Source of the DNA: Gammaproteobacteria bacterium RIFCSPHIGHO2_12_FULL_38_11
GTDB taxonomy: Bacteria > Pseudomonadota > Gammaproteobacteria > Coxiellales > Coxiellaceae
Direction of reading: 5' to 3'
Length of the DNA stretch: 38,408 nucleotides
Assembly: GCA_001801515.1 (NCBI GenBank)
Contig: MGXX01000005.1
Location: forward strand, 1 to 38,408
Shown here: positions 101 to 38,408 of the stretch, piece after piece
How the letters are laid out: every line of letters starts with the position of its first letter
How positions within the stretch are numbered: the first letter of the stretch is position 1
Made by a program: the position numbers and the translations under genes
Notes under the pieces: generated by a model
Seen by the model: the letters and a program-made list of their open reading frames with translations, nothing else
Databases searched by the model: none
What the model was told of the DNA's origin: nothing

Positions 101-131
101 ATTTAAAGAAATCTTAAAAAGGAGCTTGATT

Positions 132-1286
132 GTGGAAAAAGTTACGCGCATTTGTGTTTTAGATCAACCGTTATTTAAAGTGTTTTTGAGTTTGAAGGAT
201 CCGCGCGTTGGTGGCCGTTGTTTATACCCACTCATCAACATTATTTTTATTACATTGTGCGCATTAATTGCCGGTTGTGATGGATGGAAAGCAATTGAAG
301 CTTTTGGCCGTGAAAAAATTCGATGGTTGTCGCAATTTATCAATTGCGAAAATGGCATACCGAGCCATTTAACATTTGCACGTGTTATTGCTCGCATTGA
401 TCCGAAATTACTTGAGGGTTGTGCCAGAGAATGGTTTCAACAAATCTATCAATTAGAAATGTGGGATATTATTAATTTTGATGGTAAAACTGCCTGCGCT
501 TCAGGTCATGTAAATGGTGATAAAAAGAATATGCATTTGGTAAATGCATTTTCACCAAAGCACAATGTTGCATTGGGATCTGAGCGCGTATCAGAAAAAT
601 CAAATGAGATTAAAGCCATCCCAGTTTTATTAAAAGAATTAAATATTGCAGGCACAATTATTACCTCAGATGCAATGGGAACACAAAGAGGAATTGCTAA
701 TTTAATACGGAAAAAACAGGCTCATTATGTATTAGGCTTAAAAGAAAATCACAAAAGATTTTATCGTTATGTTGAAGCTACTTTTAAAAAAGCAGATGAG
801 CTGAATTATCAAAATATGGTGAGCGGTGATAAAAAAACAAATGATTATGGGCATCAACGCATTGAAGATCGCGAATATACAATTTTACCGATGATGTATT
901 TTTTTAAGCATGAAAAAAATTGGAGAGACTTGCAGGCAGTTGTTCGTGTTAAATCAAGCACGCACAGATTACAAAAAAATAAAGATGATGAATCAGCAGC
1001 GCGGTACTACATCACATCCATTCCATTTAAAATGTGCGATAAAATGTGTGAAGCCATTCGCGCGCACTGGTCTATTGAAAATAAACTGCACTACAAATTA
1101 GATGTTGGAATGCATGAGGATGACTGTCAAATTTATCGTGGTTTTGCAGATCAGAATTTTGCTGCGATGCGAAAAATTGTTTTGGCGTTGCTGGAAAAAG
1201 AAAAATCGTACAAGGCGGGCATCGAATTAAAACGGCATAAAGCGGCGCTCAGTACCCGATATTTAAGAAAAGTGGTCGGTTTTTAA
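132..1286 (+). mobile_element. ISAs1-family transposase (complete)
   Basis: DDE transposase of the ISAs1/H-repeat family, which moves its own insertion sequence. The reading frame is intact at 384 residues, the usual family size. The catalytic triad is visible: Asp117 in NFDGKTACAS, Asp180 in ITSDAMGTQ, and Glu316 in AHWSIENKLHY, a very characteristic ISAs1 signature. The start chosen is GTG at 132, because GGAG at 121-124 sits 7 bp before it; the TTG at 126 would be too close. I could not find terminal inverted repeats: the short dyad CTAGG/CCTAG at 84-100 lies upstream but has no partner downstream of the stop, so the element borders are undefined. It is immediately followed by two large accessory genes, which fits a role in bringing in or rearranging this region. 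Confidence 0.93.
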
Positions 1287-27418: not shown

Positions 27419-27563
27419 AGACATCCTTATTTCGTACATATTCCTTATGCATGAGCTGAACTGACACTTTAGCCGTTTTCTAGAAAAATGCGAAGCACTA
27501 ATAGAAATACATGCCATTCTCTGATAGCGTTTAGGTGTTGCCAATGATTCCATGGAGGGAAAC

Positions 27564-29348
27564 ATGCGCAGAGACCCCGCATTTGAAAAAATGGTATTAG
27601 GGAGGTTGCTATTTCAAACCCTATCAACCGAAGCGATACCCTGCATTAGCGATGATTTACAAAACGAATTTAAACTCATCAAAAACGAAACAAAAAGTAC
27701 TGACCCTAATCGTGTAAAATTAGCATTAAAAACATTAGAACACATGCAATTTTACCAAGAAGTAAATTCTGCATTTAATACTATTGCTGATGAACAAATA
27801 AAAAATTCTAATGAAATGCAATCATTACATATAACGCCAGAACAACTTTGCTGCATCATTCATCAAGCCACTTATTTTAAAAAACAACTCTACCAACTGT
27901 GCCTTCTTAACGATATTGCATTACAAAAAAAATTAATCTATAGAAAAAATTCTACTCGCAAAGCATCTAGAGCATTGACAGAGTATCATTTTTTAAAATA
28001 TTATTCACTGAAATTTATTATTGAATTCTTAATGACACAACAGACCAATGAAAAAGTGAATGATGCGCTTGTAAAAATAAAACCTTTTGAATATATGTGG
28101 TGCGAAAATAAAAATAGTGCTACTGATCACTCAAACCTTTCTGTAATATTATTACTTAAAAAGTATTTATTTATTCAAACCATTGAAGATGATGCACCCA
28201 GCAATCCAAAATCCACTGAATTTTCTCAAATATTATTTAATGAGATTATTTATCAATTTTCTATAAAAGAAATATTAAATGAAGCAACGGATGATTATTA
28301 TGTATTTGAAAAACTTAAAATTGCGTTACAAAATAGACTTGAAATAAATCACAAGCTTTGTTTTAATTGTATAAAATTAGCGGATTACTTGGGTATCAAC
28401 CTACCCATCATTAACAATGTATTGCCCAAAGCCCTTATTGAAGTCGACAATGCACTGTCAAATGCAACATTTGAAGAAGAGCCATTTATTGCGCTAAAAA
28501 AAATATTTTTACAGCTCTATCAGCAATGGGCCTATCAAAACAAAAAGGAATACACAATTGACTATCATTCTGAAAACATACTCAATTTTAAAACAATAGC
28601 CGAATTAAAAAATTATCATTTAATTCATTATGAACATACAGTAGGATATGGATTATTATGGCGAGATAATTTTCACGATCGCTGTAATGCTTATTTAATG
28701 AGATTGTTTGAGATAGCGATTGCCGTTTATATGCTTTGCAGTCCACGTTGCTTCAATAGTAGCGCATGCAAAAGTATGCTAAAAAAAAGCAAAGAAATGA
28801 TTTCGATCTCAGACGCGCCAACCTCCAAGGAACCCTCTGCTGAGGTGTATGAATTTTTTTCTTTACTGAATCATAACGCTTATTGCATTAATATCACTCA
28901 AGAGGATGTCAATACCCATGCCTTATCACTTTGCTGTGAATTATTATTAAAGAAAAAGTATGGTCATATTGGCAATACACATAGTGCATTCCTATCTCTT
29001 GGACGAAAAAAAAATGAGCCCTCATTATATATCAAACTTCGAACATGCATGAAATTTATGTATGCATTAAAACGAGACCCGGTTAATCCAGGCGAAATCA
29101 TTCAATCTAAAAAAATAAAGCACCTCTTTAATGATCATGCACTGCCTGATGTCATTTCTGAATTAGAAAAATGGAGCCAAAAAACCAATTGTTTTTGCTT
29201 CACTGAAAAATCAACAAAAAGCGCGCTTGCCGCTAAAAGCACACTGGATTTTTTTGGTTCTATTCTACAAGAAGCAGGGCTAATAACCCCAACACCTAAA
29301 TCAACAAGCGCGGCTTATTTGTCTTTTGATCAAATAGTGATGACGTAG
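27564..29348 (+). CDS. Large helical protein of unknown function, effector-like
   Basis: I do not recognise this 594-residue protein. ATG 27564 is chosen because GGAGG at 27554-27558 precedes it; the earlier ATG at 27552 would place the site inside the gene. It lacks a signal peptide, is helical and Lys/Asn/Leu rich with many Cys, and has no clear membrane helix. Segments such as LRTCMKFMYALKRDPVNPGE and ENILNFKTIAELKNYHLIHY are distinctive but match nothing I know. The C-terminal region has KSTLDFFGS, weakly similar to STSVLSFFGN in the gene remnant at 30749-30886. It stands alone, divergent from the L,D-transpeptidase. Candidate secreted effector by composition and context only. Confidence 0.6.
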   Translation: MRRDPAFEKMVLGRLLFQTLSTEAIPCISDDLQNEFKLIKNETKSTDPNRVKLALKTLEHMQFYQEVNSAFNTIADEQIKNSNEMQSLHITPEQLCCIIHQATYFKKQLYQLCLLNDIALQKKLIYRKNSTRKASRALTEYHFLKYYSLKFIIEFLMTQQTNEKVNDALVKIKPFEYMWCENKNSATDHSNLSVILLLKKYLFIQTIEDDAPSNPKSTEFSQILFNEIIYQFSIKEILNEATDDYYVFEKLKIALQNRLEINHKLCFNCIKLADYLGINLPIINNVLPKALIEVDNALSNATFEEEPFIALKKIFLQLYQQWAYQNKKEYTIDYHSENILNFKTIAELKNYHLIHYEHTVGYGLLWRDNFHDRCNAYLMRLFEIAIAVYMLCSPRCFNSSACKSMLKKSKEMISISDAPTSKEPSAEVYEFFSLLNHNAYCINITQEDVNTHALSLCCELLLKKKYGHIGNTHSAFLSLGRKKNEPSLYIKLRTCMKFMYALKRDPVNPGEIIQSKKIKHLFNDHALPDVISELEKWSQKTNCFCFTEKSTKSALAAKSTLDFFGSILQEAGLITPTPKSTSAAYLSFDQIVMT

Positions 29349-29453: not shown

Positions 29454-30725
29454 ATGGATAAATCACTGCTCCTAGAAATTATTCATGAACAGGCACAAGA
29501 CCTAACCTCTCCACGCGTTAGTCATACACGACACGCACTGACAGAGTTACAGGCTGCCATCAAAAGCACTCAAATTGTAGTGATCACTGGCATTCGCCGC
29601 GGTGGCAAATCTACTTTATTACAGCAAATTTTAAAAACAGAATTTAAGAATAAGGCGTTTTATTTTAGTTTTGAAGACGAACGTTTATTGCAATTTACCG
29701 TTGAAGATTTCAGTTTACTACATGAAGCACTCACTGAATTTTACGGTGAACAAACAGCTTTTTTTTTAGATGAAATTCAAAATATTGCCCATTGGGAATT
29801 ATTTGTCAGGCGATTACATGATCGGGGAATGAAAGTATTTATTACCGGATCCAATGCCACTCTACTCAGCCAGGAATTAAGCACGCGATTAACCGGGCGC
29901 ACCATTCCCTATGCACTTTATCCTTTTTCATTTGGCGAATTTGTTGAATTTTCAATGCCCGAGTTAAAAGGAAAATCACCCAAAACGCCTGTTTCCCGCG
30001 GTTTATTTTCAAATGCATTTACTCGTTATTTAAAATCAGGTGGAATGCCACTGCACGTTATCAACCAAGAACGATTTTTATTAACACAGGTTTATGAAGA
30101 TATTCTCTATCGCGATATTATTTCGCGTTATAAAATCAATGATGAAAAATCAATACGTGAACTTTCACTGTATTTAGTAAGCCACGTTTCATCTCTATAT
30201 TCATACAATAAATTAAAAACCATGCTACATCTCGGCAGCATGAACACAGTTAAAAATTATATTCAGTATCTTGAAAACAGCTATTTATTTTTTTCAATAC
30301 GACGATTTTGTTATTCATTAAAGCAGCAACAGTTGGCACCAAAAAAAATTTACTGTATTGATTCCGCTATTATTGATGCATTATCATTTAAGTTTTCAGA
30401 CAATTTTGGTCACCTACTGGAAAATATTGTTTTTCTCGAATTAAAGCGTCGACAACAAGAAGTATATTATTATCATTCTGAAAGTGGTCTGGAAGTCGAT
30501 TTTATTGTGCGAGACGGTGTAAAAATCACAGCGCTGATCCAAGTATGGGCATCTCTAGATAACGACAACACACAAGCAAGAGAAGTGAATGCATTAATCG
30601 AGGCCATGAATGAAATGAAATTAACAACTGGCCTCATTTTAACGGCTAATACCAGTAAGACAATTAAAAAAGATGGTAAAATAATACATGTCCTACCTGT
30701 TTATCAATGGTTACTTTCAATATAG
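29454..30725 (+). CDS. Orphan AAA ATPase of the AAA_14/DUF4143 family
   Basis: A 423-residue ATP-binding protein. The N-terminal half is an AAA_14 domain with Walker A GIRRGGKST (46-54) and Walker B FFLDEIQ (Asp106, Glu107), followed by FITGSNATLLSQELSTRLTGR, a typical sensor region. The C-terminal half is DUF4143, related to restriction-endonuclease-like folds, with HLLENIVFLELKRR and SGLEVDFIVRDG (Glu and Asp of a possible PD-(D/E)xK core). These genes are widespread, often horizontally spread, and their job is unknown; defence or toxin roles have been suggested. It has a near-consensus promoter with an overlapping dyad and no partner gene on its strand. Confidence 0.92.
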   Translation: MDKSLLLEIIHEQAQDLTSPRVSHTRHALTELQAAIKSTQIVVITGIRRGGKSTLLQQILKTEFKNKAFYFSFEDERLLQFTVEDFSLLHEALTEFYGEQTAFFLDEIQNIAHWELFVRRLHDRGMKVFITGSNATLLSQELSTRLTGRTIPYALYPFSFGEFVEFSMPELKGKSPKTPVSRGLFSNAFTRYLKSGGMPLHVINQERFLLTQVYEDILYRDIISRYKINDEKSIRELSLYLVSHVSSLYSYNKLKTMLHLGSMNTVKNYIQYLENSYLFFSIRRFCYSLKQQQLAPKKIYCIDSAIIDALSFKFSDNFGHLLENIVFLELKRRQQEVYYYHSESGLEVDFIVRDGVKITALIQVWASLDNDNTQAREVNALIEAMNEMKLTTGLILTANTSKTIKKDGKIIHVLPVYQWLLSI

Positions 30726-30951: not shown

Positions 30952-32091
30952 TTATGACAACTCACTTTCCCATAAGATAACATCGAGGTAATATTTCATC
31001 GCAGGATCTAATACACAGTAATAACCATCCTGACGAAAATAAATTAAATCTTTTTTTAATAGTACGTCTACAGATAATTGTGCGCTAGATGGAGAAATTT
31101 TTAATGGTCCAGCAAAATCAATGGATTGAATTTCCTTAGCAGGGGTTTTTGCCAATGCCGTTAATATTTTTCGTTGATTTACACTCAACCCCATCACATC
31201 ATGACTGATAATTTGCCGCTGCGTTTTAACGTACGTATGCCATGCGCCATCAACCGCTTCTACTGATAAAATATTATTTTTATCCCACAATATTTGACAC
31301 AAGACATTCATATAAAACGGATGTAATTCAGTATGAAAAAATATTTTCTCAAGTACATCATCTAAAATACTTTTTTTCCATTTTATTTTGGATAAATGAC
31401 GCAAATGATCGACATAAACTTGCTTTTCCATACGTTCAATATGAATTAATTGACACAATCGATACAAGGAACGTCCGCTGTCACCAAACATTTGTTCCAA
31501 TAATCCACGATTACTGCCTGAAAATACATAAACAATATATTCACTGCGTTCTACAGCATGGCGTATAGACGCTTCAATGGAATGATAATTTTTTAGTTGA
31601 CTAATCTGCTGAAATTCATCTAAAAAAATCACCGCTTGTTTTTTAAAATGCTTTGCGGTTTCATCTAATTTCAATAATGCATCTGTCATATCCTGCAATG
31701 GACTATTTGTTAAATGCAGTTTTAATTTTTGACCGAAAGCACCCAATGTAATTTCAGGTTTCATTTGCTTAAAAATCAACATTAATTTTTCACGCGCTTT
31801 GGTCAAATTGGGCAGTAATTCAATTGCTAATCGCCCAACTTTTTCAACAATTTGATCTCTGACATATTCAATATCGTAGGCGGCCAGCAAATCAATAGCA
31901 CAAGAATGAATCTTCATCTCATAGGCAACTTGCATCACCAAACTGGTTTTACCATAGCGCCTGGGCGCCATTAAAACGGTATGTTTGTTGGATTTTATGC
32001 GCTTAATCAAGATGTTGCGTTCTGCAACACGATTGATAAAGGCATCGCCCATCGCGATACCTTCAGGGAACATTTCTAAATTGTCACTCAT
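30952..32091 (-). CDS. Orphan AAA ATPase with C-terminal winged-helix region
   Basis: A 379-residue P-loop ATPase resembling the archaeal-type/STAND-like ATPase group. Walker A is MAPRRYGKTSL (41-51), Walker B is VIFLDEFQQ (Asp158, Glu159), and YVFSGSNRGLLEQMF is the sensor region. The last 80 residues (VNQRKILTALAKTPAKEIQS to SAQLSVDVLLKKDLIYF) look like a winged helix that could bind DNA. Function of the group is unknown. The ATG at 32091 lies within one arm of a 52-bp dyad, so its expression is probably regulated there, possibly by the protein itself through the winged helix. It follows lpdA on the same strand but has its own promoter. Confidence 0.88.
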   Translation of the reverse strand: MSDNLEMFPEGIAMGDAFINRVAERNILIKRIKSNKHTVLMAPRRYGKTSLVMQVAYEMKIHSCAIDLLAAYDIEYVRDQIVEKVGRLAIELLPNLTKAREKLMLIFKQMKPEITLGAFGQKLKLHLTNSPLQDMTDALLKLDETAKHFKKQAVIFLDEFQQISQLKNYHSIEASIRHAVERSEYIVYVFSGSNRGLLEQMFGDSGRSLYRLCQLIHIERMEKQVYVDHLRHLSKIKWKKSILDDVLEKIFFHTELHPFYMNVLCQILWDKNNILSVEAVDGAWHTYVKTQRQIISHDVMGLSVNQRKILTALAKTPAKEIQSIDFAGPLKISPSSAQLSVDVLLKKDLIYFRQDGYYCVLDPAMKYYLDVILWESELS

Positions 32092-32140
32092 CGCATATCT
32101 CTATATCACATAAGGTTATGTGATAGCAGTATATGCGATG
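32089..32140. promoter_or_regulatory. 52-bp two-tier palindrome covering ATPase promoter and start codon
   Basis: Outer arms CATCGCATAT (32089-32098) and ATATGCGATG (32131-32140), and inner arms TATCACATAA (32104-32113) and TTATGTGATA (32116-32125), are both perfect and share the same centre at 32114.5. The 5-nt spacers between tiers are equal in length but not complementary. The outer arms contain the ATG start on one side and half of the -10 on the other. Confidence 0.9.
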
Positions 32141-32156
32141 CTACTGTCGATGTAAA
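32128..32156 (-). promoter_or_regulatory. Candidate sigma-70 promoter for the winged-helix ATPase
   Basis: On the minus strand TTTACA (32156-32151) and TATACT (32133-32128) are 17 bp apart. The start point would be near 32121, inside the inner palindrome, leaving about 30 nt of leader. The -35 begins 6 bp past the lpdA stop codon. Confidence 0.6.
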
Positions 32157-32161
32157 TAGCA

Positions 32162-33592
32162 CTACTTCTCAGTCGTTTTCTTTTTAGGAAGATACAAATC
32201 CGTCACGCTACCCTCAAACACCTCAGCCGTCATCATAATCGATTCTGATAGTGTTGGATGCGGGTGAATGGTTAATGCAATATCTTCCACATCACAACCC
32301 ATTTCAATGGCCAATGTGATTTCACCAATTAATTCCCCCGCATTGACGCCAACAATAGCGCCACCGATAACACGATGTTTATCGTCAAATAATAGTTTGG
32401 TAAAACCTTCGGTGCGGTCGACAGATAATGCACGGCCAGATGCTGCCCAGGGAAATATGGCTTTTTCAACTTTCATGCCTTTCTCTTTTGCTTGCGTTTC
32501 CGTCACCCCCACCCAAGCAATTTCAGGATCTGTATACGCAACAGACGGAATACATTTTGCATCGAAATAATATTTTTTACCGGCAATCACTTCAGCTGCT
32601 AATCTACCTTCTGCAGATGCCTTATGTGCCAACATCGGATTTCCTACAATATCTCCAATCGCATAAATTCCGGCAACTGTTGTTTTCATTTGATTATCCA
32701 CTGCTATAAATCCGCGATCATCTACCTTAACACCGGCTTTTTCAGCGTCAATCAGTTTGCCATTGGGTTTACGACCAACCGCTACCAAAATACGATCATA
32801 CCGTTTTGGATTTTCTTCAGGTGCATTATCCCCTTCAAACGTAACGTATAATCCCTCTTTTTTAGCTTCTACTTTAGTAACACGCGTTTTTAGCATGATA
32901 TTTTTATAGCGTTTTTCAAGGCGTTTATGTAATGGTGCAACGACATCGCGATCAGCGCCTGCAATTAATTGATCCATCATTTCAACGATACTGATTTTTG
33001 CACCGAGGGCATGATAAACCGTTGCCATTTCTAAACCAATAATCCCACCACCTAAGACTAATAATTCTGCGTCAGGTTGTGCTAATTCTAATGCTGATGT
33101 GGAATCTAAAACACGTGGATCTTCAGGCACAAACGGCAATTTAACAGGCAATGATCCTGCTGCAATAATGCAATTATCAAAGGTGATTTCTGTTTTTTCT
33201 TTTCCGTTGTCAACGATAATTTTTTTCGCATCAACAAATTTCCCGTAACCTGAGACAATTTGCACTTGACGTTGTTTTGCCATCATTGTCAAACCACCGG
33301 TTAATTTTTTAATAATGGAATTTTTATAATCGCGAATTTTATCGATATTTAATTTGGGCTTGCCAAATTCAACGCCATGTAAAGATGCATCCGCTGCTTC
33401 ATCAATGATTTTTGCAATATGTAACAATGCTTTTGAAGGAATACAACCGACATTTAAACACACGCCGCCGATCACGTCATATCGCTCAATTAAAATTACT
33501 TTTTTACCTAAATCAGCCGCTCGAAAAGCAGCAGAATAACCGCCAGGACCACTTCCTAAAACAACTACTTCGGCATGTAATACATTACTCAT
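32162..33592 (-). CDS. lpdA: Dihydrolipoyl dehydrogenase (E3)
   Basis: Flavoprotein that reoxidises the dihydrolipoyl groups of the pyruvate and 2-oxoglutarate dehydrogenase complexes, passing electrons to NAD+. The 476 residues show the FAD loop VLGSGPGGYSAAFRAADLG, the redox-active disulfide Cys45-Cys50 in GGVCLNVGCIPSK, the NAD loop LVLGGGIIGLEMATVYHALG, the second FAD motif YAIGDIVG, and the catalytic His in IHPHPTLSES. AGAGG precedes the start. It would normally follow aceF directly; here 1.8 kb of other genes intervene, and the stop of the hepT toxin is 11 bp upstream, so lpdA is likely read on the toxin-antitoxin message or from an unseen internal promoter. Confidence 0.97.
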   Translation of the reverse strand: MSNVLHAEVVVLGSGPGGYSAAFRAADLGKKVILIERYDVIGGVCLNVGCIPSKALLHIAKIIDEAADASLHGVEFGKPKLNIDKIRDYKNSIIKKLTGGLTMMAKQRQVQIVSGYGKFVDAKKIIVDNGKEKTEITFDNCIIAAGSLPVKLPFVPEDPRVLDSTSALELAQPDAELLVLGGGIIGLEMATVYHALGAKISIVEMMDQLIAGADRDVVAPLHKRLEKRYKNIMLKTRVTKVEAKKEGLYVTFEGDNAPEENPKRYDRILVAVGRKPNGKLIDAEKAGVKVDDRGFIAVDNQMKTTVAGIYAIGDIVGNPMLAHKASAEGRLAAEVIAGKKYYFDAKCIPSVAYTDPEIAWVGVTETQAKEKGMKVEKAIFPWAASGRALSVDRTEGFTKLLFDDKHRVIGGAIVGVNAGELIGEITLAIEMGCDVEDIALTIHPHPTLSESIMMTAEVFEGSVTDLYLPKKKTTEK

Positions 33593-33603
33593 AATAAAAC
33601 CTC

Positions 33604-34014
33604 TTAATTTGCTTTTAAAATTTCTTGTATGAATTTTTCAAAATCCGTTAAATGATTTTCAACAACGTTCATGACCACGTTTAAATCAAGTGTTCGATAC
33701 TCATGTACAGCTATATTACGAAACCCGACCATGCCAATCATTATTTTACACATTTCCTGTGTAATGATTTTATGTTTATACAAAGACTCAAATAAATCTT
33801 TGGATTCTCTTGGGAGATCCAATGCTTTTTTGCGCACAATATGCGCCGCAATATCAATTGTTATTTGTATGGCACGCTGTAAATCCAATACCACAGAATT
33901 TTGTAAAATATAACTGTCTAAAAAAATTTCCCGCGCTTTTGGATAGGCATTCCGGATATTGATAATGCAATTTCTAATGGATCTACATTTATTTATGATA
34001 ATATCATTTTCCAT
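33604..34014 (-). CDS. hepT: HepT-like toxin (HEPN/DUF86)
   Basis: HEPN-fold ribonuclease toxin of the MntA-HepT type VII toxin-antitoxin systems. The 136 residues carry the active-site motif R-x4-H-x-Y as Arg99, His104, Tyr106 in FRNIAVHEY; the tyrosine is the residue the antitoxin AMPylates to silence the toxin in characterised pairs. The key residues are intact, so the toxin is potentially active. Its ATG follows the stop codon of mntA with no gap, as expected for translational coupling. It lies between the antitoxin and lpdA. Confidence 0.92.
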   Translation of the reverse strand: MENDIIINKCRSIRNCIINIRNAYPKAREIFLDSYILQNSVVLDLQRAIQITIDIAAHIVRKKALDLPRESKDLFESLYKHKIITQEMCKIMIGMVGFRNIAVHEYRTLDLNVVMNVVENHLTDFEKFIQEILKAN

Positions 34015-34464
34015 TTATCTATCTCGCTTTTCCTGTTTCCTGTCATCATGTAAAAAACTAAACCAGCCAGTAACCACTTCTGAAAAATTATCTAAAATTT
34101 CCTTTCTATCATCATTTAATTGCAAATATCGCGTATACACCAAATCTAAATATTTCTCAAAATCACCATCTTGAAAAATAACCTGACCAGTTGAAACAAT
34201 AACAAACCGAAAAACAGTATCAATGGTTTTTAAATTAATAAAATCTACATGTTCAACATGCATCAAGCTCGCAAGTCCAGGCAGAACATCAAAAAACAGC
34301 TTATTAGAATCCACCTCATCATCCGCAAGAAAAGCCAAATCAATATCGCTTTTTTCAGTTGCATGCCCGGACGCATAACTACCATATAAAATCAGCAGAC
34401 GCAACTTCATCTTGCTTTGCAAAAAAGTGGTTATTTTCTGTATATCATCGTTATGTAACTTCAT
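34015..34464 (-). CDS. mntA: MntA-like nucleotidyltransferase antitoxin
   Basis: Minimal nucleotidyltransferase that acts as antitoxin by adding AMP to the HepT tyrosine. The 149 residues contain the family motif G-S-x10-D-x-D: Gly28, Ser29, Asp40 and Asp42 in LYGSYASGHATEKSDID. The third acidic residue is probably Asp in VEHVDFINL. The gene comes first in a unit mntA-hepT-lpdA on the minus strand, with mntA and hepT directly joined. The upstream 131 bp are shared with the divergent deacetylase gene; only a weak GAGAT site precedes the start. Confidence 0.92.
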   Translation of the reverse strand: MKLHNDDIQKITTFLQSKMKLRLLILYGSYASGHATEKSDIDLAFLADDEVDSNKLFFDVLPGLASLMHVEHVDFINLKTIDTVFRFVIVSTGQVIFQDGDFEKYLDLVYTRYLQLNDDRKEILDNFSEVVTGWFSFLHDDRKQEKRDR

Positions 34465-34595
34465 ATCTCATTGATTTTATCAGTTTATAATTACGATGTC
34501 GCGTTCCAACAGCTAAATTATGCCAGGCTGGCATGGCTTAGAAATATTGGGTATGTTAACCTCATAATTAACACCTATCATGGAGGATACAAAAA

Positions 34596-35381
34596 ATGCG
34601 CTGCATCCTGTTTTCGCTGGTCACCTTCGCTTTGATCATCTGTAGTTCCATTGCATCAGCTGCCACCCCCAGATACATTCCCATCTTCGTCTACCATAAT
34701 TTTGAACCCATAAAAAAAGGCTCAATGACGATCAGCACTAAAAAATTTGAAGAACAGTTACAATGGCTCAAAACAAATGGCTACACTGTTATCCCATTAA
34801 AAGAAGCGGTTGCTTACTTACAAGGAAAAATTGCATCCGTGCCTGCTAAATCTGTCGTCATTACAATAGATGATGGACGCATCACCGTCTTCACGCATGC
34901 CTTACCCATCGTGAAAAGATACAATATTCCCGTCACTTTATTTATCTATCCTTCGATTATTTCACGTGAACCTTATGCAATGACGTGGGGGCAACTCAAA
35001 GAATTACAACAAACACGATTATTCAATATTCAAAGTCACACCTTCTCGCATCCCAATTTCAAGCAAGAAAAAAGACATTTATCCGCTGAAAAGTATACTC
35101 AATTTGTTAATTTTGAATTAAATCATTCAAAAAAAATACTAGCAGAAAAAGCAGGTACGCCAGTGACTTTGTTGGCATGGCCATTTGGTATTTATAACGA
35201 TGATGTGGAACGCGCTGCTGCAAAATCAGGCTATGAAATGGCGTTTAGCATTGCTTATCGATGTGCTACAAAATCAGACAGAGCGATGGCAGTGCCACGA
35301 TATATGTTGCTTGAAACACAGAGCATGAAATTATTTACGATGATGGCCGCATGTCGCATGCAACCAACAAAATACAAATAA
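34596..35381 (+). CDS. Exported polysaccharide deacetylase (NodB domain)
   Basis: Removes acetyl groups from amino sugars such as those of peptidoglycan or exopolysaccharide. The 261-residue precursor has a signal peptide (LFSLVTFALIICSSIASA, cut near ASA). NodB motifs: catalytic and metal Asp92-Asp93 in VITIDDGR, His148 and His152 in SHTFSHPNF, and AWPFGIYND as motif 3. The metal triad is thus complete. GGAGG stands 10 bp before the start. It runs opposite to the surrounding pdh genes, and its stop codon is only 3 bp from the aceF stop, showing it was fitted tightly into the operon. Confidence 0.92.
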   Translation: MRCILFSLVTFALIICSSIASAATPRYIPIFVYHNFEPIKKGSMTISTKKFEEQLQWLKTNGYTVIPLKEAVAYLQGKIASVPAKSVVITIDDGRITVFTHALPIVKRYNIPVTLFIYPSIISREPYAMTWGQLKELQQTRLFNIQSHTFSHPNFKQEKRHLSAEKYTQFVNFELNHSKKILAEKAGTPVTLLAWPFGIYNDDVERAAAKSGYEMAFSIAYRCATKSDRAMAVPRYMLLETQSMKLFTMMAACRMQPTKYK

Positions 35382-35384
35382 GAA

Positions 35385-36674
35385 CTATAACAACAGCGTT
35401 CGAATATCCGACAAACACTGCGACAAATAAACAGCGAAGCGTGCACCATCGGCACCATCAATGACGCGATGATCGTAGGATAAACACAAAGGCATCATTA
35501 AACGAGGCACAAAATTATCTTCTACATACAACGGTTTCATCGTGGCTTTTGAAACCCCTAAAATTGCTACTTCAGGTGCGTTAATAATCGGTGTGAAAGC
35601 AGTGCCACCAATGCCCCCTAAACTAGAAATTGAAAAGCAGCCGCCTTGCATATCGATCATTGTTAATTTGCCATCCCGCGCTTTGCTACTCATCACCTCT
35701 AATTCTTTTGCCAATTCAAAAATACCTTTTTTATCAGCATCGCGAATCACAGGAACCACCAATCCATTTGGCGTATCAACCGCAACCCCCACATGAAAAT
35801 ATTTTTTAAGCATTAAATTTTCACCTGTTGAATCTAATGATGAATTAAATTGTGGAAATTTTTTAAGTCCCGACACGACGGCTTTGATAATAAAAACCAA
35901 GGGCGTTAATTTAAATCCTTTTTTAATCGCTTTGTCTTTATTTTCCTGACGAAATTGCTCAAGCTCTGTGATATCAGCTTCTATAAATTGCGTAACATGC
36001 GGAATAGAAACCCAATTCCGATGCAAATTTGCACCCGAACTTTTTTGAATTTTACTGAGGGGTTTTGATTCGGTTGTGCCAAATTTTGAAAAATCAATAA
36101 CGGGTTGCGCCAATACAGAGAATCCGGAATTATTATTTCCCTTTGATAAATAATTTTTAATATCGTCTTTGGTAATGCGGCCTTTTTCACCGCTGCCTTT
36201 TATTTTCGATAAGTCGATATCGAGTTCGTGGGCGATGCGGCGAATTCCAGGGCTTGCATGTGTGATAAATCCCCCCGATATCGCTGGCGCGATATCGACC
36301 CCCTTTTTCAAAGGGGGTAATTGAGGTGCATCATTTGATTCACCCTTTTTCAAAGAGGGTAATTGAGGTGCATCATTTGATTCACCCCCTTTGAAAAAGG
36401 GGGTCGGTTTTGCGTCAGCAAAACCGGGGGGATTTTCCGCAACACCAGCGACAGTGCAAATCACCGATCCTTCAGAAACCTTATCACCCACTTTAATCGC
36501 AACTGATTCAACAACGCCCGCTTCAGACGATGGGATATCCATACTCGCTTTATCACCTTCAAGGGTAGCCAGCGGCGTATCAATTGCAATCGTGTCGCCC
36601 ACTTTAACTAATACAGCAATAACGTCAACTTGATTTGCAGCGCCAATGTCAGGAACTTTAATTTCTATTGTCAT
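35385..36674 (-). CDS. aceF: Dihydrolipoyl acetyltransferase E2 with repeat-derived linker
   Basis: Core enzyme of pyruvate dehydrogenase; carries acetyl groups on lipoyl lysine to coenzyme A. The 429 residues hold one lipoyl domain (1-79, lipoylated Lys42 in LEGDKASMDIP), a peripheral-subunit-binding domain (about 138-176, HASPGIRRIAHELDIDLSKI), and the catalytic domain ending with SYDHRVIDGADGARF (catalytic His and Asp). The segment 80-136 that links the first two is encoded by a 169-bp palindromic element and contains two 14-residue repeats (ESNDAPQLPSLKKG and ESNDAPQLPPLKKG). The start overlaps the aceE stop by 4 bp. Confidence 0.96.
   Translation of the reverse strand: MTIEIKVPDIGAANQVDVIAVLVKVGDTIAIDTPLATLEGDKASMDIPSSEAGVVESVAIKVGDKVSEGSVICTVAGVAENPPGFADAKPTPFFKGGESNDAPQLPSLKKGESNDAPQLPPLKKGVDIAPAISGGFITHASPGIRRIAHELDIDLSKIKGSGEKGRITKDDIKNYLSKGNNNSGFSVLAQPVIDFSKFGTTESKPLSKIQKSSGANLHRNWVSIPHVTQFIEADITELEQFRQENKDKAIKKGFKLTPLVFIIKAVVSGLKKFPQFNSSLDSTGENLMLKKYFHVGVAVDTPNGLVVPVIRDADKKGIFELAKELEVMSSKARDGKLTMIDMQGGCFSISSLGGIGGTAFTPIINAPEVAILGVSKATMKPLYVEDNFVPRLMMPLCLSYDHRVIDGADGARFAVYLSQCLSDIRTLLL
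36267..36435. repeat. 169-bp multi-hairpin palindromic element inside aceF (family C)
   Basis: Ends are perfect 10-bp inverted repeats, AAATCCCCCC (36267-36276) and GGGGGGATTT (36426-36435). Inside lie a perfect hairpin GATATCGC/GCGATATC (36277-36296), three CCCTTT-type stems such as ACCCCCTTT/AAAGGGGGT (36298-36318), two 42-bp direct repeats starting at 36319 and 36361, and GGTTTTGC/GCAAAACC near the right end. The whole stretch stays open in the aceF frame. Confidence 0.9.
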
Positions 36675-38408
36675 GATTTAACAGGCTCCGGTTTATTTGC
36701 ATCAATTTCCAACTTTTCACGCGCGATTTTTAAATTTTCGAGAGAAAAATCGCCTTTTTCCATTAACGCATATAATGCTGTATAAACAATCATTTTTGCA
36801 TCGACCTCAAAGAAATCGCGTAGTGCTTCGCGCGTATCGCTTCGACCATATCCATCAGTTCCTAATACATAATATGGCGCATGAATTGCTTCGCGAATTT
36901 GATTCGCATTCATTTTTAAATAATCTGTTGCTGCTATAATCGGTGCAGTATTGTCTTTAAAACATTCTTCGACATAACATAATTTTTTCTTTTCTTCGGG
37001 ATTAAAAAGATTTTTACGTGCAATAGTTTCCATGTCTTTGCGTAATTCATTAAAACTTGTTGCGCTCCAGATAGCTGCAATAATATTAAATTTTTCTTTT
37101 AATATATCAGCAGCTTTAATTACTTCAGTCAATATGGCACCCGCGCCTACAAGATGCACGCACCCAACCGGGCGCGTTTCTGTGCTATTTGATGTAGATT
37201 TCACCTGCTCAACATTGATTTCCAGCTGGTAGAGTCCTTTCAATATCCCCACTTCTGAACCCGCAACCATCTTCGGATGATGGTAATTTTCATTCATCAA
37301 ATTAATATAATAAAAAACATCCTCTTGATTCTCAAACATTCGACGAAGACCATCTTGAATAATCACCGCCAACTCATAGGAAAAAGCGGGATCATAGGAA
37401 ACACAATTTGGTACCATACCAAACATAATATAATTATGGCCATCTTGATGTTGCAATCCTTCACCCGCCAATGTGGTGCGACCTGCCGTGCCACCTAAAA
37501 TAAATCCACGTGCACGCATATCTCCCGCTGCCCACACCAGGTCACCAAAGCGTTGGAAACCAAACATCGAATAATAAATATAAAAGGGGATCATCGGCTC
37601 ATGATTAGAAGAGTAAGACGTCGCAGCCGCAATCCATGCCGACATCGCCCCCGCTTCAGAAATACCTTCTTGCAATAATTGGCCTTTTTGATCTTCGCGA
37701 TAATACATTAACTGCTTTTTATCTTCAGGTTGATAATGCTGTCCCTGTGGTGCATAAATACCAATTTGTCGAAACAATCCTTCCATACCAAAGGTGCGTG
37801 ATTCATCAGCAACAATAGGTACTATTCGTTCTTTAATATTATTATCTTTCAATAAAGTCGACAAAATACGCACAAAAGCCATCGTACTTGAAATATCGCG
37901 CTCACCTGAACCTGCTAATAAAGTTTCAAATGCAAATAATTCTGGCACGATTAATTTTTCGCATTGGGGATCACGGGCAGGCAAAACCCCACCCAACTTT
38001 TTGCGATTATTTTTCAAAAAGTTAATTTCTGCGGACTTCTTTTTGGGCTTATAATAATTTAATTTTTCAAGATCCGTGTCTGATAAGTCCAACCCAAAAC
38101 GTTCCCGAAAATGTTTTAAGGTTTCAACTGACATTTTTTTTGTTTGATGCGCCACATTTAACGCCTCACCACTTTTACCCATGCCGAAACCCTTGACTGT
38201 TTTAGCTAAGATAACGGTTGGTTGATTTTTATGGGCAACCGCTGCAGCATAAGCAGCATACACTTTTTGCGGATCATGTCCGCCGTCTAATAGGATTCTT
38301 TTTAATTGTTCATCACTTAAATCAGAAACCAATGTTAATAATTCAGGATATTTTCCAAAAAAATTCGCACGCAAATAAGCACCGTCATTAGCAGAAAATT
38401 TTTGGTAT
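36671..38408 (-). CDS. aceE: Pyruvate dehydrogenase E1 (homodimeric type), 5' end beyond the window
   Basis: Thiamine-dependent E1 enzyme that decarboxylates pyruvate and acetylates the lipoyl domain of AceF. About 579 codons are present, with the first 300 or so residues lying outside the window; the frame is open to the last base, so no start is seen. Typical stretches are KTVKGFGMGKSGEALNVAHQ, QRFGDLVWAAGDMRARGFI, LGGTAGRTTLAGEGLQHQDG and APYYVLGTDGYGRSDTREAL. One insertion of about 12 residues (NSTETRPVGCV) before HLVGAGAIL is encoded by a copy of the family B palindrome. The stop overlaps the aceF start by 4 bp. Confidence 0.97.
   Translation of the reverse strand, partial: YQKFSANDGAYLRANFFGKYPELLTLVSDLSDEQLKRILLDGGHDPQKVYAAYAAAVAHKNQPTVILAKTVKGFGMGKSGEALNVAHQTKKMSVETLKHFRERFGLDLSDTDLEKLNYYKPKKKSAEINFLKNNRKKLGGVLPARDPQCEKLIVPELFAFETLLAGSGERDISSTMAFVRILSTLLKDNNIKERIVPIVADESRTFGMEGLFRQIGIYAPQGQHYQPEDKKQLMYYREDQKGQLLQEGISEAGAMSAWIAAATSYSSNHEPMIPFYIYYSMFGFQRFGDLVWAAGDMRARGFILGGTAGRTTLAGEGLQHQDGHNYIMFGMVPNCVSYDPAFSYELAVIIQDGLRRMFENQEDVFYYINLMNENYHHPKMVAGSEVGILKGLYQLEINVEQVKSTSNSTETRPVGCVHLVGAGAILTEVIKAADILKEKFNIIAAIWSATSFNELRKDMETIARKNLFNPEEKKKLCYVEECFKDNTAPIIAATDYLKMNANQIREAIHAPYYVLGTDGYGRSDTREALRDFFEVDAKMIVYTALYALMEKGDFSLENLKIAREKLEIDANKPEPVKS
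37156..37184. repeat. Family B palindrome embedded in aceE
   Basis: Matches the copies at 6096-6126 and 6138-6168 over 29 bp with only a few differences; the dyad arms are ACGCACCC (37158-37165) and GGGCGCGT (37170-37177). On the coding strand it reads as Thr-Arg-Pro-Val-Gly-Cys-Val and neighbours. Confidence 0.82.

Follow-up and report, generated by a model that had tools for sequence, protein, structure and literature searches.

A type VII HepT/MntA toxin-antitoxin pair between aceF and lpdA in Coxiella-related bacteria

The genes of the pyruvate dehydrogenase (pdh) operon, aceE, aceF and lpdA, stand in their usual order in Gammaproteobacteria bacterium RIFCSPHIGHO2_12_FULL_38_11 (Coxiellaceae; contig MGXX01000005.1), but are split by a polysaccharide deacetylase gene and by a mntA-hepT toxin-antitoxin pair. 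We analyzed a stretch of 38,408 nucleotides from this contig, here called the window, and compared its pdh locus with those of related genomes. The gene orders indicate that at least three lineages have the pair within the pdh operon and that the deacetylase gene entered later, in the lineage of the window. Our best explanation as a whole, which we hold with modest confidence, is an old insertion of the pair in the pdh operon that was inherited with losses and was followed by the later entry of the deacetylase gene.

Organization of the locus in the window and in close relatives

On the minus strand of the window aceE-aceF is followed by mntA-hepT-lpdA, and the deacetylase gene, on the plus strand, separates aceF from mntA. 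Only the 3′ part of aceE (36671-38407, minus strand; pyruvate dehydrogenase E1, PF17831, TIGR00759 positions 331-884) is included, its 5′ end lying beyond the window, and its stop overlaps the start of aceF by 4 bp. The aceF gene (35385-36674, minus strand) encodes a 429-aa E2 with one lipoyl domain and a complete C-terminus that ends in DIRTLLL; this protein scores 541.9 against TIGR01348, slightly below the cut-off of 552.1. Convergent with aceF, the deacetylase gene (34596-35381, plus strand, 261 aa) has its stop 3 bp from the aceF stop (35382-35384). On its other side a divergent gap of 131 bp (34465-34595) separates it from mntA (34015-34464, minus strand, 149 aa), which encodes the adenylyltransferase antitoxin. 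The gene for the HEPN ribonuclease toxin, hepT (33604-34014, minus strand, 136 aa), comes next, and after a further 11 bp (33593-33603) lpdA (32162-33592, minus strand, 476 aa) encodes dihydrolipoyl dehydrogenase (E3), identified by its open reading frame and by TIGR01350 (488.9 bits; cut-off 408.8). Although aceF and lpdA share a strand, 1.8 kb and three genes lie between them, so they are not adjacent as in the pdh operon. The genes, identities and short spacings that a sequence-only reading of the window had claimed were borne out, with a reservation about the deacetylase, which had been called NodB. The PF01522 domain and the convergent placement stand, but the best NCBIfam matches of the protein are the PgaB model (116.6; cut-off 321.9) and the IcaB model (92.5; cut-off 248.35). 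With scores so far under the cut-offs, NodB-fold, PgaB-like is the safer label.

We estimated aceF-lpdA gaps from tblastn matches in the 77 loci that held both genes, out of 80 loci fetched with LpdA. The gap was ≤150 bp in 55 loci, 150-700 bp in 19 and >700 bp in 3, in line with the earlier claim that aceF and lpdA are normally contiguous. A lipoyl-domain match falls between the aceF and lpdA matches in 16 of the 19 loci of the middle class, so those gaps are overstated. The three widest gaps are those of L004 and L005, which contain mntA-hepT, and of L072, which contains other genes.

L004 and L005 are the pdh loci of the genomes G004 and G005 (likewise, L002 belongs to G002 and L118 to G014), which are two of eight close relatives of the window. 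Both read aceE-aceF-mntA-hepT-lpdA on one strand, with no deacetylase gene, so that the pair has the same slot, order and orientation as in the window. In the other six (G001, G002, G003, G013, G014 and G015) the pair is absent and aceF stands immediately before lpdA. LpdA is 84% identical to that of the window in G004, 82% in G005 and 82-88% in the six relatives without the pair. The genes are tightly packed in G005, with overlaps of 10 bp between aceF and mntA and 11 bp between mntA and hepT and a spacing of 21 bp between hepT and lpdA; in G004 mntA, its start codon assigned by homology, shares 4 bp with the end of aceF. The presence of the pair without the deacetylase in these two genomes means that the split of the operon represents two events and not one. 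The earlier description, in which a deacetylase and a toxin-antitoxin pair split the operon, is correct in that both are present, whereas pdh synteny in the relatives points to two separate insertions, that of the pair being the more widespread. A joint insertion of both was considered and rejected for the same reason and because deacetylase homologues lie elsewhere: five near homologues among 55 relatives, 52-75% identical, are all on contigs apart from the pdh locus. The title of the L004 record is Verrucomicrobia bacterium, but the pdh genes in it fall among those of Coxiella-related gammaproteobacteria; this is probably a mislabelled genome bin.

Identity and distribution of the pair

The window HepT matches NF047751 with 133.7 bits (cut-off 60) and PF01934 with 88.3 bits, and the window MntA matches NF047752 with 78.3 bits (cut-off 60). 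The HepT motif RX4HXY is intact (R99, H104, Y106) and its residues are invariant in 24 of 24 rows of the alignment. Likewise, the MntA motif GSX10DXD is intact, and G28, S29, D40, D42 and D74, which include its residues, are invariant in 38 of 38 rows. A profile of the HepT subfamily matches the HepN chains of PDB 5yep and 6m6u (E 1e-46 and 8.5e-47), and a profile of the MntA subfamily matches the Mnt family chains of the same entries (E 2.9e-20 and 9.7e-19). By models, neighbouring genes and motifs, the window pair is a type VII HepT/MntA toxin-antitoxin with predicted toxicity and neutralisation.

The type VII pair of Shewanella oneidensis, HepT/MntA (SO_3166/SO_3165; PMC7641770, PMC4621449), offers the comparison. 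According to these papers, HepT is an RNA-cleaving enzyme whose RX4HXY tyrosine receives three AMPs from MntA (PMC7641770); the two genes form a bicistronic operon, and its promoter, located 30 nt upstream, is bound and repressed by the antitoxin (PMC4621449). The window pair resembles it in both motifs, in having the antitoxin gene first and in its PF01934 and nucleotidyltransferase domains. The Shewanella pair, however, has its own promoter, whereas the pair in G004 and G005 sits inside a metabolic operon with no room for one. The HEPN-MNT pair lpg2920/lpg2921 of Legionella pneumophila, a member of a neighbouring order, is likewise type VII, with overlapping genes; unlike for the window pair, the accessible text of PMC11586414 gives no sign of a metabolic-operon location.

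Judged by homology searches, the MntA found here forms a distinct subfamily. It is a tight one, with 57 proteins in 5.8 billion at E 1.5e-31 or better, in a search that picks up only relatives sharing short words. Among 369 genomes of the class, MntA gave 246 bits with G004 and 98 bits with the next best. Of 36 genomes from the order, three had a match, which was strong only at the pdh loci of G004 (199 bits) and G005 (190 bits); the next best reached 47 bits. No match was found in 143 Legionellales genomes at E 1e-15, and the one match at 1e-25 in a phylum sample of 398 genomes was G004 itself. With HepT, 29 of 187 relatives gave 37 matches, 7 of them without a locus; aceF or lpdA lay within 1.5 kb in only two of the 30 loci returned, again those of G004 and G005. 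We also compared LpdA proteins, 120 listed of 7992, with the MntA records. Two metagenome contigs seem to carry both proteins, linked by equal recorded lengths only: one of 9,990 bases with MntA, HepT and a 91% identical LpdA, and one of 2,319 bases with MntA and an 85% identical LpdA.

Between the window and G004 the identity is 76% for MntA and 58% for HepT, and within this subfamily conservation seems higher in the antitoxin than in the toxin (alignments A1, A2). By eye, the N-terminal extension of the MntA protein P0265 resembles the out-of-frame aceF end of G004.

Origin and age of the insertion

In the history that we favour, an ancestor of the Coxiella-related group would have acquired a type VII MntA-HepT pair in its pdh operon, at the aceF-lpdA junction. 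The pair would then have been inherited with losses, and in G004 and G005 it would be read with aceE-aceF and lpdA. In the lineage of the window, the deacetylase gene would later have entered facing aceF, leaving a mntA-hepT-lpdA block. Silent divergence among the window, G004 and G005, calculated with NG86, is 1.41-1.48 for mntA, 0.95-1.80 for hepT, 1.02-1.37 for lpdA and 1.20-1.81 for aceF. A recent transfer of the pair between lineages is unlikely, as its silent divergence is like that of its flanks, and the pair appears to be at least as old as the split between these lineages. In the same comparisons dN/dS is 0.13-0.16 for mntA and 0.17-0.32 for hepT, low values that show purifying selection on both genes, which are thus kept. 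The tree of the pair and the host tree agree in separating the window and the contig of 9,990 bases from G004 and G005; these are four rows, too few to count.

Several observations weigh against a single old insertion. Silent sites are near saturation, and YN00 gave no result in 9 of 12 comparisons. The G+C content of hepT and mntA is 28-34%, compared with 40-44% for aceF and lpdA. On the host tree, which was built from AceF and LpdA with 18 rows and is partly unresolved, presence of the pair changes at least three times, where random labels average 2.9. Three changes make three insertions the shorter account, since one insertion needs about five losses. Inspected by eye, the aceF-lpdA gaps of the six relatives that have no pair showed no traces of mntA or hepT. 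In G004 a gap of 202 bp with a palindromic stretch separates hepT from lpdA (L004 7799-8000). Finally, 8 of 11 subfamily MntA records (contigs ≥4 kb, self excluded) have no LpdA contig of equal length among the 120 listed of 7992, and these members may lie elsewhere than pdh or belong to hosts with a more distant LpdA.

Such observations could instead reflect a site-preferring passenger: members of one MntA-HepT subfamily, coming from diverged donors, would have entered the aceF-lpdA junction independently in three or more lineages, an account that we find possible but doubtful. The three host-tree changes, with starred branches in support, argue for it, as do the lack of pair remnants in the relatives and the many subfamily MntA records on long contigs without a visible LpdA among those listed. 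The exact aceF join also differs, as G004 keeps the complete LLL end and G005 ends in ...ADKTVWN. However, the order, orientation and near-seamless fit are alike each time, and no repeats, integrase or transposase were seen at the ends of the pair. A search of 50,697 phage records gave no close match, and viral contigs gave none (one scan, with MntA as the only query), and 27 plasmid records gave only matches of <60% identity; a phage or plasmid origin of the pair, which we also considered, was set aside on this basis. On balance we lean towards a single origin over several insertions. That the arrangement in the window is an assembly artefact joining unrelated pieces is very improbable: for each of the window proteins HepT, LpdA and MntA the record lists 4 contigs, the longest of which has 50,054 bases in all three cases, and two other genomes have this gene order apart from the deacetylase. 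The earlier suggestion that coupling would fix the pair in the genome is not supported, given that 6 of 8 close relatives have no pair at this site and that a single insertion would imply about five losses.

Two kinds of candidate remnant were examined and discarded. The usual hydrophobic C-terminal end of aceF is lost in G002, G014 and G005 (3 of 9 group loci) and, outside the group, in L050, L078 and L137 (95 rows, some genomes twice), all judged by eye. We did not count these altered ends as deletion or insertion scars, nor as evidence of loss, because that of G014 is explained by a short deletion without hepT. G002 has a hepT-like piece (E 3.7e-5, one internal stop), which lies on contig C1, and its pdh contig is C18. 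The 202-bp gap of G004 has inverted ends and resembles a small mobile palindromic element.

Transcription of lpdA and possible coupling to the pair

In G004 and G005 mntA overlaps aceF, and co-transcription of the pair with aceEF and lpdA is likely because the pair is enclosed by aceF and lpdA, all on one strand. In the window, as the sequence-only reading had stated, lpdA lies directly behind hepT with no promoter seen between them. The 11-bp gap holds only the ribosome-binding site, AAGAGG, or most of it, as its first bases are inside the hepT stop codon, and no above-chance site was found upstream: the best promoter-like site in the 300 nt before lpdA was reached by 306 of 500 random sequences. 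The 131-bp gap before mntA is a candidate place for a promoter of mntA-hepT-lpdA and also has no above-chance site, its best being reached by 60 of 500 random sequences. Over 31900-36900 we counted 17 promoter-like sites, compared with 15.5 ± 4.0 in shuffles. The mntA-hepT-lpdA block would be read from a promoter in this new gap or by read-through from aceF, and a dependence of lpdA on the transcript of the pair is plausible in the window. Exactly one TIGR01350 match over the cut-off was found in each of ten genomes, whose completeness is unstated. A second, weaker match occurs in G013 (370 bits) and G001 (259 bits). G004 and G005 have nothing else above 53 bits; the check for a second lpd gene that had been proposed earlier, run in these two genomes, revealed no second lipoamide dehydrogenase over the family cut-off.

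A strong contender, though we would not quite back it, is that lpdA has a promoter inside hepT or is reached by aceEF read-through past the deacetylase gene, which would leave the pair without a say over E3 supply. The lpdA gene of E. coli has its own promoter, and promoter-like sites with 9 of 12 matching positions occur within hepT (33662-33633) and at the beginning of lpdA (33619/33618-33591). The hepT site, however, is at chance level, and those at the lpdA start overlap the start codon. No terminator-like site was seen between aceF and lpdA on either strand, so aceEF read-through across the deacetylase antisense is possible, but the scan, with 2 sites found compared with 4.3 in shuffles, is little evidence that terminators are absent. 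Rho-dependent termination would also be favoured along an antisense stretch that is long and untranslated.

The toxin and antitoxin would presumably act as in Shewanella, with HepT cleaving RNA and MntA silencing HepT by AMP on Tyr106. An operon-embedded pair without autocontrol of a promoter would fit silencing by modification and not by dosage. That a toxin-antitoxin promoter can feed a downstream gene of wide effect has a precedent in Staphylococcus aureus, where, according to PMC3920265, full sigma-B activity depends on read-through from the mazEF promoter. In contrast to the present case, mazEF is type II, the downstream gene encodes a sigma factor and the effect is experimentally shown; here the downstream gene encodes a central metabolic enzyme and the effect is predicted. 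It is improbable that the pair has been domesticated as a metabolic brake, that is, as a fixed-ratio sensor of central metabolism resident in the pdh operon. Because silencing consumes ATP, a fall in carbon flux or ATP would then leave new HepT active and growth would halt. HepT, MntA and E3 would come from one message, and deletion of the pair or a polar mutation would cost E3.

The literature searched yielded no description of a pdh operon containing HepT-MntA, leaving aside PMC7701990 and PMC5720513, in which HEPN, toxin-antitoxin and pyruvate dehydrogenase come together. In this group of uncultured Coxiella relatives, a toxin pair that arrests growth appears to have shared a message with a central metabolic enzyme over a long time, a natural case that bears on the persistence of chromosomal toxin-antitoxin pairs and their possible wiring to metabolism. 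Coupling between growth control and central metabolism is plausible and can now be tested; since some close relatives carry the pair and others do not, its effect on the operon is directly comparable.

Other features of the window were noted. The aceF linker (36298-36404) consists of a palindromic repeat of the CCCTTTTTCAAAGGGGG type in three in-frame copies, and the CCCTTTTTCAAAGGGGG-type pattern has 6 matches on both strands compared with 0.04 expected. A palindrome similar to this repeat is present in the aceF-lpdA gap of G015 (L112/L166). After lpdA lies an AAA ATPase gene (30952-32091), which is found at the same place in G015 (80% identical) and not in G001-G005. Further on are an AAA_14/DUF4143 ATPase gene (29454-30725), which matches the PADLOC candidate defence family PDC-S01 (E 2.5e-111), and beside it a gene for a 598-aa protein without a Pfam match (27552-29348). 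The left end of the window (126-1286) encodes a DDE transposase with its associated domain.

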